Origin: Chitinophaga pinensis
Lineage (GTDB): Bacteria; Bacteroidota; Bacteroidia; NS11-12g; UBA955
Length of the DNA stretch: 64,000 bases
Direction of reading: 5' to 3'
Assembly (NCBI GenBank): GCA_945871905.1
Contig: CAMBXL010000005.1
Span: forward strand, 1-64,000
In this document: in pieces, positions 2,656 to 34,466 of the stretch
How positions within the stretch are numbered: the first letter of the stretch is position 1
Layout: each line of letters starts with the position of its first letter
The notes under the pieces: model-generated
Told to the model about the DNA's origin: nothing
What the model saw: the letters and a program-made list of their open reading frames with translations, nothing else
Databases searched by the model: none
Translations under genes and position numbers: made by a program

Positions 2656-4101
2656 ATGGCGAATTTTATGGCGACTGATTGGACCGTTTGTGAGGAATGC
2701 AAAGGACTCGGAAAAAAATACCGAGCGATTAAAAAACCCGTAAAAAAGGTTCACCATTCGTTGTCAAACACAAGTGAACCACCTGAACTTACTCCGCCAA
2801 AATTCCATTTAGAAAACTGTTTGATTTGTGATGGCAAGGGACTTATTCCGGCTGTCACCCCTCCTACTGTCGACACATCGCTTTTCCCACATATCGCTAT
2901 TATAGGTGCCGGCATTGGTGGAGTTGCACTTGCAGTAGCTTGTTTGCACCGTGGTATTCCGTTTACTTTGTTCGAACGTGATGATAGTTTTGATGCACGT
3001 TCGCAAGGGTATGGATTAACCTTACAACAGGCCAGTAAAGCCATGGCAGGATTAGGAATTACAACACTTCATAAGGGTGTGGTTTCTACCAAACACATCG
3101 TGCACAATCCTGATGGCAAAGTGGTGGGTGAATGGGGCATGCGCAAGTGGATGGAGATAAACCCTGATGCGAAACCTCGAAAAAATAACATCCACAACAT
3201 ACACATTGCCCGTCAGGAACTCCGATTGGCATTACTGAATCAATTGGGTGAACATACCAAAGTGCAATGGGGACATCAATTGACCGAATTAGAAACAATA
3301 AGCCATAACAAAGTAAAATTGAGTTTTATGGTCAATAATAACATGAAACAAGTTAGCGCAGATTTGGTAGTGGGTGCCGATGGGATAAGAAGTGCAGTGC
3401 GAAAAATCACCATTGGCGAAGAAACCACTCCCCTGCTTTACTTGGGTTGTATCGTTATTTTAGGCATTTGTAAACTCAATGCTTTACAACATATCCAAAG
3501 TCACCTGCTCGATTCGGCTACGGTTTTTCAAACTGCCAATGGTCACGAGCGTATTTACATGATGCCTTATGACGCTGAATCGGTAATGTGGCAACTAAGT
3601 TTTCCTATGTCCGAAGAAGTGGCCAAAACATTAAGCGCAAATGGCGCCTCTGCACTAAAAGAAGAAGCCTGCAATAGAATAAAATGGCATACACCCATTC
3701 CAGAAATTTTAGCATCAACAGAGGTCGTCAATATTTCGGGATACCCTGTTTACGACAGAGAATTACTAAATCCAGAATGGTTGAAAAATGCCGGTTCAAT
3801 AACCTTAATAGGAGATGCCGCCCATCCAATGAGTCCGTTTAAGGGACAAGGGGCTAATCAAGCATTAATTGACGCATTGGTAATAGCAAGAACCATTTAC
3901 GTCAATTGTAAAACCACCAATCAATGGCAAAAAACAGGATTAAGAACTGAAGTTTTAGATGCATTTGAGAATGAAATGATTCACCGCAGTGCTGTTAAGG
4001 TCAAAGAATCGAGGGCAGCGGCACAATTCCTTCATTCGGATGTTGTGCTACAAGAGGGTAATATTACCCGTGGCGGTTGTGCCAAGACTTTAATGGAATA
4101 G
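2656..4101 (+). CDS. FAD-dependent monooxygenase with N-terminal DnaJ-type zinc ribbon
   Basis: 481 residues. The first 65 carry two CxxCxGxG motifs, CEECKGLG (12-19) and CLICDGKG (55-62), which resemble one zinc site of the DnaJ cysteine-rich domain. After that begins a PHBH/UbiH-type flavoprotein monooxygenase: the GxGxxG motif GAGIGG at 84-89 with a downstream acidic residue (FERDD), a mid-protein DG motif (VVGADGIRS), and the second FAD motif GDAAHPMSPFKGQGAN near residue 390. Family members hydroxylate or epoxidise aromatic and terpenoid substrates using NAD(P)H; the substrate here cannot be read. The role of the zinc ribbon is unknown. An alternative start at M5 would not change the domains. 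Confidence 0.8.
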   Translation: MANFMATDWTVCEECKGLGKKYRAIKKPVKKVHHSLSNTSEPPELTPPKFHLENCLICDGKGLIPAVTPPTVDTSLFPHIAIIGAGIGGVALAVACLHRGIPFTLFERDDSFDARSQGYGLTLQQASKAMAGLGITTLHKGVVSTKHIVHNPDGKVVGEWGMRKWMEINPDAKPRKNNIHNIHIARQELRLALLNQLGEHTKVQWGHQLTELETISHNKVKLSFMVNNNMKQVSADLVVGADGIRSAVRKITIGEETTPLLYLGCIVILGICKLNALQHIQSHLLDSATVFQTANGHERIYMMPYDAESVMWQLSFPMSEEVAKTLSANGASALKEEACNRIKWHTPIPEILASTEVVNISGYPVYDRELLNPEWLKNAGSITLIGDAAHPMSPFKGQGANQALIDALVIARTIYVNCKTTNQWQKTGLRTEVLDAFENEMIHRSAVKVKESRAAAQFLHSDVVLQEGNITRGGCAKTLME

Positions 4102-4251
4102 AGAAATTTGATTTCTATATAAATAGATAAAAAAGCAAGTGAATCGTAAACCCACAAATCAGTATAAGAAAAGGTCTTTTGATAATCAAAAAACATTAGT
4201 ACACAATCAATTGTTTTATATAAAATCTTTAATGGTTTTAAAAAAATAAAA

Positions 4252-4791
4252 ATGATAAAATACATATTAATATTACTGACAATTAGCTTAAACACTCATT
4301 CAAACGTGAATAAAATTTACACTTTTTCAACTCAAACGAACATTAAGGAATGGCGTGTTGTGAACGATGGAGTTATGGGTGGAATATCCAAAAGCTCATT
4401 GGCTCTTAATGACACAGGGAATGGCAAATTCTCAGGACATGTTTCTTTGGCTAACTATGGAGGATTTGCATCGATACAATTGAATACATCGATAAAACTA
4501 GATGATGAAAAGAAGTTCATTGTATTGCGAATAAAAGGAGATGGCAAGCGCTATGAATTTCGTTTAAAGGGATTAAATTCACAGTCTGAGTCATACGTTC
4601 ACCAATTTAGCACTTCAGGGAAATGGGAAAATATCAAGTTAGCACTGAACGAATTTTACCCACAATACAGAGGCAGTAAATTGAATATTCCAAATTTCAA
4701 TTTTAATAGCATCGAACAACTGAGCTTTTTAATAGCCAACAAGCAAGAAGAAGACTTCGAATTATTAATCGATTGGATAGGTATAGAGTAA
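4252..4791 (+). CDS. CIA30 family protein
   Basis: 179 residues with the CIA30 (complex I intermediate-associated protein 30) hallmark WRVVNDGVMGG at residues 34-44, then a beta-rich domain ending FELLIDWIGIE. In eukaryotes the family chaperones assembly of respiratory complex I. Bacterial members are mostly uncharacterised, and the fold is a galactose-binding-like jelly roll. A hydrophobic N terminus (residues 2-13) could be a weak signal peptide. It stands alone between unrelated genes. The family call is firm; the function in this organism is not known. Confidence 0.8.
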   Translation: MIKYILILLTISLNTHSNVNKIYTFSTQTNIKEWRVVNDGVMGGISKSSLALNDTGNGKFSGHVSLANYGGFASIQLNTSIKLDDEKKFIVLRIKGDGKRYEFRLKGLNSQSESYVHQFSTSGKWENIKLALNEFYPQYRGSKLNIPNFNFNSIEQLSFLIANKQEEDFELLIDWIGIE

Positions 4792-32073: not shown

Positions 32074-32482
32074 TTTTCAAAAATTGTAGGAATCTATTTT
32101 GTCATGGTGATTCAATCGATCAGAGTGGATGATGATTGCAAATAATACCACAATGAGGCTTTTATTTACAGAGCTAAATGAATTTTTGATAACCTCACGC
32201 TGAACAGCGTGAGACAATTAATCATTATTTACAGACGCCTCGCAAGGAGTCTCTAACATTAACTATTTGCCGATAGCTATCGGGACTATTAAGCATCTCC
32301 CCAACTGTCATTTCGAAGAAGGAGACATCTTTTACCGACAGCTTTTGTGCTTGATGTTGGTCTCGGTTTAAAAGAAAAAAAGAATTTAAAGCCTTGATAA
32401 AATGCAATCGAAGTTGAAAACTTTAACGCAAATGTGTTCGATTGAATTCATATTTTTGCAGTTAAGTTAAGAATTAAAAAAT
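32074..32482. other. non-coding stretch with hairpins and repeat-like fragments
   Basis: 409 bases without a supported gene. A perfect hairpin CTCACGCT-GAAC-AGCGTGAG lies at 32194-32213. CCGATAGCTATCGG near 32268-32281 is a second dyad. The text between (for example GTCATTTCGAAGAAGGAGAC near 32307-32326) looks like a decayed copy of intergenic repeats that I recall as common in Bacteroidota. A TATTTTTG box at 32451-32458 probably drives the next gene. Confidence 0.45.
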
Positions 32483-33106
32483 TTGAAAACGGGGAATCTT
32501 TTTTTTGTACTATTGTCTGTATTATCTCTTTTTTCATGCAATCAAGAAAAATCTGGCGTTAATCAACTTTCCCAATCTGATGAGAATAAAGCAACCATCA
32601 TTATTCAACCTTTTGATGAATTTCCCGAAAATGAAACCCAAACAATAGCAGTCGAATTAACAAAAGTCTACTCAAAGGTTACTATCAATAAAAATATCCC
32701 TTTTCCTAGTAATTCGATTAACCCTTCAGGCAAAAGATACCGTGCCGATTCTTTAATTAAATATTTGAGTAAACATGCACCTAAAAATACGCTTATAATT
32801 GGACTAACTAATAAGGACATAAGTACACAAAAAGGGGAAATCAAAGATTGGGGTGTGTTTGGTTTAGGTTATTGTCCTGGCAAATCTTGTATTGCCTCAA
32901 ATTTTAGATTAAAAGGTAAGAATAGAGCTGAAAAGTTATACAAAGTCGCTATTCATTAACTTGTTCATACCCAAGGCCTTCCCCACTGCCCCATAAAAAC
33001 TTGTTTGATGCGAGATGCAAAAGGCAAAGATGTTTTAAACGAAGAAAAAGAATTTTGCAATAAGTGTAAAAAGGGTTTAATGAATGCCAATTGGGCTTTT
33101 AAATAA
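32483..33106 (+). pseudogene. archaemetzincin-type metalloprotease gene with stop codon at the catalytic glutamate
   Basis: From a TTG start the frame encodes a lipoprotein signal (LLSVLSLFSC, C19) and an archaemetzincin (M54) body including TLIIGLTNKDIS and GVFGLGYCPGKSCIAS, then ends at residue 158, which is the first active-site histidine. The next codon is TAA (32957-32959). The same frame then continues L-V-H-T-Q-G-L-P-H-C, CPIKTC-LM, FCNKC and stops at 33104-33106. The family motif is HELGHxxGLxHCx4C...CxxC, so TAA replaces the catalytic Glu codon (GAA) and GTT replaces the Gly codon. All other zinc ligands remain. As read, the product lacks the active site. A nonsense mutation, a base error or readthrough are the options. 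Confidence 0.82.
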
Positions 33107-33107
33107 A

Positions 33108-34466
33108 ATGAATAAAAAATATCTAATAAAAAACATTAACATCGTGAATGAGGGTTCTATCATAACAAGTGATGTACTCATAGAAAATGGATTGATTAAA
33201 AAAATTGGCGTTATCAATGATTCAGAAAGTCATGTGATTGATGGCACTAATCAATTTCTATTTCCAGGTATTATTGATGGTCAAGTGCATTTTCGCGAGC
33301 CTGGACTAACTCACAAAGGCGACCTATACACAGAGAGTAAAGCTGCCGTTGCAGGAGGCACCACCTCATTTATTGACATGCCCAATACTGTTCCAAATGT
33401 ATTGACAATGGAAATTTTAAACGATAAATACAATATTGCTTCAAAGCAGTCTTTGGCTAATTATGGTTTTTTCTTGGGCGTCAATGGAGACAATCTTGAC
33501 GAAGTAATCAAACTTGACAAAAGTAAATTACTTGGTGTTTCGGATGATGGTCTCTATTTCACAAAAAAAGGGAATCTACTTGCTGACAATCCTGATACGA
33601 TGGAAAAACTATTTGCTAACTGCAAATCCATAATAGCGATTCATTCTGAGAAAGAGAGTATTGTTGAAGAAAACGAAAACCATTACAAAAACCTATATGG
33701 AGAAGATGTCCCTGTTAAATTTCACCCAATAATAAGGAGCGAACAAGCCTGTTATGAAGCTACAAAAAGAGCCATTGATATCGCAAACAAGCACAATGCT
33801 AGACTTCATATCCTCCACTTAACAACTGAAGCTGAAACACATTTATTCAGAAACGATATCCCTTTAAAAGAGAAAAAAATAACGACCGAAGTGTCTGTTC
33901 ACCACCTTTGGTTTAGTGACAAAGATTACGACAAATTGGGCACTTTAATCAAATGGAATCCTGCTATTAAAACCGAAAAAGACAAAAACGGATTGTTAAA
34001 AGCCCTTTTAGAGGACAGAATTGACATTGTAACAACAGACCATGCACCTCATTCAATCGAAGAAAAAGAAAAAACTTATTTCAATGCAATGTCTGGTGCT
34101 CCTATCATTCAACATTCATTAAACATTATGTTGGAATTTTACAAAAAAGGCCAAATTTCTCTTGAAAAAATTGCTGAAAAAATGTGTCACAATCCAGCAA
34201 TTCTTTATGATATTTCAAAGAGAGGATTTATTCGTGAGGGTTATTATGCAGACTTATGCATTGTTGACTTAAATTCAGACTGGACCGTTAATAAAGACAA
34301 TCTTTTATATAAATGTGGCTGGTCACCTCTAGAAGGCACCTCTTTTGGAACCCAAATTACACACACTTTTGTCAATGGTAACTTGGTGTACAACAATGGA
34401 CAATTTGACGAAAGTTATAGAGGACAAGCCCTAGAGACAAGCGAACAAGTTAGGCAACAGGCTTAA
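33108..34466 (+). CDS. pyrC: dihydroorotase
   Basis: 452 residues from the ATG at 33108, one base after the preceding frame ends; an upstream in-frame ATG at 33084 lies inside the protease remnant and is less likely. Amidohydrolase fold: metal-site motif DGQVHFREPGLTHKGD (57-72, with Gln in place of the first His of DxHxH, as I recall from other Bacteroidota versions), VAGGTTSFIDMPNT, and the late metal residue in TTDHAPHS. It closes carbamoyl aspartate to dihydroorotate, the step after PyrB, whose gene is 18 kb away. Confidence 0.88.
   Translation: MNKKYLIKNINIVNEGSIITSDVLIENGLIKKIGVINDSESHVIDGTNQFLFPGIIDGQVHFREPGLTHKGDLYTESKAAVAGGTTSFIDMPNTVPNVLTMEILNDKYNIASKQSLANYGFFLGVNGDNLDEVIKLDKSKLLGVSDDGLYFTKKGNLLADNPDTMEKLFANCKSIIAIHSEKESIVEENENHYKNLYGEDVPVKFHPIIRSEQACYEATKRAIDIANKHNARLHILHLTTEAETHLFRNDIPLKEKKITTEVSVHHLWFSDKDYDKLGTLIKWNPAIKTEKDKNGLLKALLEDRIDIVTTDHAPHSIEEKEKTYFNAMSGAPIIQHSLNIMLEFYKKGQISLEKIAEKMCHNPAILYDISKRGFIREGYYADLCIVDLNSDWTVNKDNLLYKCGWSPLEGTSFGTQITHTFVNGNLVYNNGQFDESYRGQALETSEQVRQQA

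Follow-up and report, generated by a model that had tools for sequence, protein, structure and literature searches.

The archaemetzincin gene (peptidase family M54) at 32483..33106 on the forward strand of the window, as we call the whole 64,000-nucleotide stretch of DNA analyzed, carries a premature TAA exactly at the codon of its catalytic glutamate. In our interpretation, which we give a probability of about 0.77, the archaemetzincin was a dispensable secreted protein with a lipobox, and its gene has recently suffered a loss of function. This reading is based on the stop itself, the intact remainder of the gene, the pattern of conservation, a patchy distribution, the presence of other broken copies and the fact that the stop is not shared.

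Anatomy and identity of the interrupted gene

With a TTG start assumed, the gene comprises 207 codons on read-through and is of the lipoprotein type. The frame before the premature stop (32483..32959, +) encodes a signal peptide, the lipobox cysteine (Cys19) and the N-terminal portion of the fold, amounting to 158 residues with an incomplete zinc site. The codons around the lesion are CAT (His158, 32954-32956), TAA (32957-32959, +) at the position of Glu159, CTT (32960-32962), GTT (Val, 32963-32965, +) at the position of Gly161 of HExGH, and CAT (His162, 32966-32968). The frame after the lesion (32966..33103, +) reads TQGLPHCPIKTCLMRDAKGKDVLNEEKEFCNKCKKGLMNANWAFK and runs to the original terminal stop TAA (33104..33106, +). 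After the premature stop, Leu, Val and His162 are followed by TQGLPHC, Cx4C, CLM and CNKC, and His162, His168, Cys169, Cys174, Met176, Cys192 and Cys195 are all kept. The terminal stop ends one base before an intact pyrC-like dihydroorotase gene (33108..34466, +), whose ATG lies at 33108. The placement of the stop at the catalytic glutamate, and the survival of the histidine and cysteine zinc ligands and of the terminal stop with pyrC one base on, were thus correctly described in an earlier note on this DNA.

With the stop masked as X, the translation scored 27 bits against Pfam PF07998 (cut-off 24.4), and a profile built from the gene and its relatives matched the solved archaemetzincins 2x7m, 4axq and 3zvs (E=7e-27 for 2x7m). 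The formal M54 motif is HEXXHXXGXXHCX4CXMX17CXXC. The zinc-binding histidines of HxxxHxxGxxH are present in the read-through frame (His158, His162 and His168, with Gly165), as is the four-cysteine element Cx4CxM...CxxC (Cys169, Cys174, Met176, Cys192 and Cys195). The gene therefore shares with the known archaemetzincins (AfAmzA and the three solved structures) the profile, all His and Cys ligands and the extended motif minus the Glu. It differs from them in having a stop for the catalytic Glu of HExxH, a Gly-to-Val change in HExGH, a lipoprotein signal and a spacer of 15 rather than 17 residues between CxM and CxxC, the shorter spacer being the same in an intact relative (G014). From its sequence, the gene is a descendant of the M54 family whose product is predicted to be no active member. 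Cys19 of the lipobox is conserved among family homologues, which together with the signal peptide suggests that the ancestral archaemetzincin was probably a lipoprotein.

Translation of this gene would end after His158 and give a truncated 158-residue lipoprotein devoid of the catalytic Glu, of two zinc-binding His (the second and third) and of the four-Cys zinc element, so that presumably no protease is made. Between the premature stop and the zinc site there is no start codon, and reinitiation would thus not rescue the product. Accidental read-through would seldom insert Glu and would still give Val at position 161, a substitution that is itself expected to damage the site. In the archaeal enzyme AMZ-tk, the E183Q replacement leaves minimal activity (PMC4681839). 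Premature termination might in addition reduce the translation of pyrC, which starts one base past the original stop, if the two genes are coupled.

Conservation among homologues and age of the lesion

To place the lesion in context, we used 110 homologues besides the window gene, taken from the genus, the family, the order and named genomes; the last were scanned with an alignment query, a single-protein scan having given no matches there. Glu159 is invariant in all of them (110/110), none has a stop at codon 159, and Gly161 is found in 109/110, the exception being an Ala in Chitinophagaceae bacterium LY-5 (L136). The earlier note had presented the glycine change as a departure from the M54 motif; its conservation is confirmed here, but the position is not included in the formal motif. 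Homologues that normally end before the site had been raised there as grounds for abandoning the claim; none of the 110 ends there, and the claim stands.

Conservation reaches at least 85% in 41 alignment columns; the window gene differs in only two of them, Glu159 and Gly161, and keeps the other 39. Because the homologues use GAA or GAG for Glu159 and GGN for Gly161, the minimal path is one base change per codon, from which we infer the ancestral letters at both codons. Of the two G-to-T changes described earlier, the TAA and GTT codons are thus directly seen, while the direction of change derives from the relatives; the changed bases lie at 32957 and 32964, a distance of seven and not eight as had been stated.

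When identity after the stop was compared with identity before it, the mean excess was 0.157 for the window gene and 0.145 for intact genes (rank 61/97), and the terminal branch of the window gene in the tree is near the median. Divergence after the stop is therefore no greater than in intact genes, suggesting that inactivation was recent. Counts of new stops and of hits on conserved codons put the neutral divergence accumulated after inactivation at an estimated 0.009 substitutions per site (95% upper bound 0.04) on the assumption that the Gly change followed the stop, and at no more than 0.026 substitutions per site if both changes were simultaneous; the order and timing of the changes are in this sense estimates. 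No second archaemetzincin that could compensate was found in the genome, in which the window gene is the only M54 match. The gene thus has the marks of a recent pseudogene, namely a disabling lesion in an otherwise family-typical sequence, intact relatives and no compensating second copy.

Distribution, genomic setting and other broken genes

The archaemetzincin gene is patchily distributed, being present in about a third of the order (34 of 108 genomes). In the tree the window gene groups with Flavobacterium copies (L091, an intact homologue from Flavobacterium amniphilum, and L094; support 0.92), apart from the copies of its own genus, and no archaemetzincin adjoining pyrC was found among the relatives. 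Just upstream lies a dispersed intergenic repeat (32215..32342, +), of which the genome has 14 other partial copies. Together, the distribution, the tree position, the lack of the pyrC adjacency elsewhere and the upstream repeat are consistent with an accessory gene that moves horizontally, and the gene was probably acquired in this way; we envisage that it was gained horizontally and would have been lost repeatedly in related bacteria. The partial copies of the repeat elsewhere are 77-97% identical, and the repeat contains the palindrome CCGATAGCTATCGG. The genome also has a second dihydroorotase gene (C8:34187-35506), 50% identical to the pyrC of the window, and two dihydroorotase genes occur in several members of the genus as well.

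Four other archaemetzincin copies are broken: one by a nonsense codon, two by frameshifts and one as a fragment. The nonsense case is that of the cultured strain Cloacibacterium rupense CGMCC 1.7656 (L120, match 4001-4543), in which an in-frame TAG, a substitution and not an indel, occupies a codon that specifies Gln in 75/111 sequences. Like the window gene, it is an otherwise intact homologue with a single in-frame stop; its TAG is located upstream of the zinc motif, leaving HELGH intact, whereas the TAA of the window gene is inside the motif. In G022 (L038) a single frameshift lies near an N-terminal A-rich run, and in G046 (L024) a single frameshift directly follows GLP, in a C run (C4); both could represent slippage or draft-genome errors. 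The fragment is a second copy in G007.

A hexamer-based screen for lone stops was run over 613 kb of the genome (contigs C5 and C1), and its output consisted largely of tandem genes sharing one frame. The one clear lone-stop case is a LigB-family dioxygenase gene (L170, C5:82894-83805, -), situated on the window's contig outside the window; its frame is interrupted once, by a TAG at C5:83092, and is continuous from there on. An outer-membrane-like frame (L181, C1:84344-84706, -) is a possible further case, interrupted in frame by TAA at 84503 and by more stops downstream; the fragment gave no Pfam match. The archaemetzincin gene itself was missed, so the screen undercounts. The last 48 codons of the gene have an in-frame hexamer score of -5.6, which we count against the null-allele reading, although the stretch is short and Cys/His-rich.

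Weighing the alternative readings

The earlier note had left three options, a very recent inactivation, a sequence error, and a stop that is read through or recoded. If the bases at both codons were consensus errors, the real genome would hold an intact archaemetzincin. Such an artefact is unlikely, but it deserves weight: two changes seven bases apart in a gene otherwise fully conserved would be accounted for, the genome is a 31-contig draft, and the 33 tRNA genes found in it do not include one for tRNA-Ile, which indicates that the assembly is imperfect and incomplete in repeats. The frameshifts of G022 and G046 also sit in homopolymer runs, a frequent type of draft error; the lesion of the window gene, however, consists of two substitutions rather than homopolymer indels. 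It lies 33 kb inside a 196-kb contig, the 14-mer carrying it is unique in the genome, leaving no donor for a misassembly, and a broken copy is found in a cultured strain too (C. rupense). The sequence is thus probably correct. The two departures both fall inside HExxH with nothing else lost (p=0.007 for random conserved codons, a post hoc value, since its place in the motif was the reason for choosing the site), and this clustering, which counts against a null allele arisen by neutral hits, speaks for an artefact or for one event changing two bases rather than for two independent hits. The simpler explanation of the cluster is either a consensus error or a mutation of several bases at once. 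Within the reading of a real allele, we consider it quite possible, at somewhat under an even chance, that both changes arose at once, in a multi-nucleotide mutation caused by template switching or an error-prone polymerase, and not as successive neutral hits. Against a single event, the altered 14-mer has no donor template elsewhere in the genome and the altered motif no above-chance near match in the window, and two independent hits could still have given the same result. A donor for the altered motif by gene conversion or template switch was accordingly rejected, none being present in window or genome.

The retention of the post-stop frame with all zinc ligands would also be expected if the TAA were decoded, for instance as Gln, into a full-length, catalytically dead zinc protein. 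There is precedent for such a product in CarG of Myxococcus xanthus, an M54 homologue in which the catalytic Glu is replaced by Gln (PMC3427221). CarG resembles the window gene as an archaemetzincin lacking the catalytic Glu; it is, however, intact and has an established regulatory role, whereas the window gene contains a stop codon and a full-length product is not expected. Since a functional dead archaemetzincin exists, a product of this type is conceivable, but the present data give no sign that it is made. Selected in-frame stops have likewise been proposed for bacteria in a study that argues for frequent prokaryotic read-through (PMC7918605). The genes described there resemble the window gene in that one in-frame stop interrupts a frame that is conserved apart from it, but only stops common to two or more genomes are counted in that study, and the stop described here occurs in a single genome, with 0/110 homologues sharing it at codon 159. 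A global reassignment of TAA to sense was rejected, since TAA is the commonest terminator (233/313 sampled long frames) and also ends the archaemetzincin gene itself. Among the 33 tRNAs found, a set that is incomplete and without tRNA-Ile, none has a UUA, CUA or UCA anticodon, and the folding of the 100 bases that follow the stop is no more stable than that of shuffled sequences (z=+1.1), with no stable stem-loop. With no shared stop, a common terminator, no suppressor tRNA found and no stem-loop, recoding to a functional protein comparable to CarG appears very improbable. We regard as fainter still the variant in which low-level decoding of the TAA would yield a little full-length, protease-inactive archaemetzincin as a CarG-like zinc-bound partner, the truncated lipoprotein being the main product. 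A very recent inactivation is consequently the best supported of the three options, in that only two of the 41 conserved columns differ, post-stop divergence is normal and other copies have been broken independently.

The window gene is, in our reading, an ordinary recently inactivated accessory gene and not a new way of reading stops. It offers a worked example of how a lone stop at a catalytic residue can resemble recoding, with relatives broken elsewhere and another lone-stop gene on the same contig. Judging from their recurrent loss, secreted archaemetzincins in Bacteroidota seem to be accessory.
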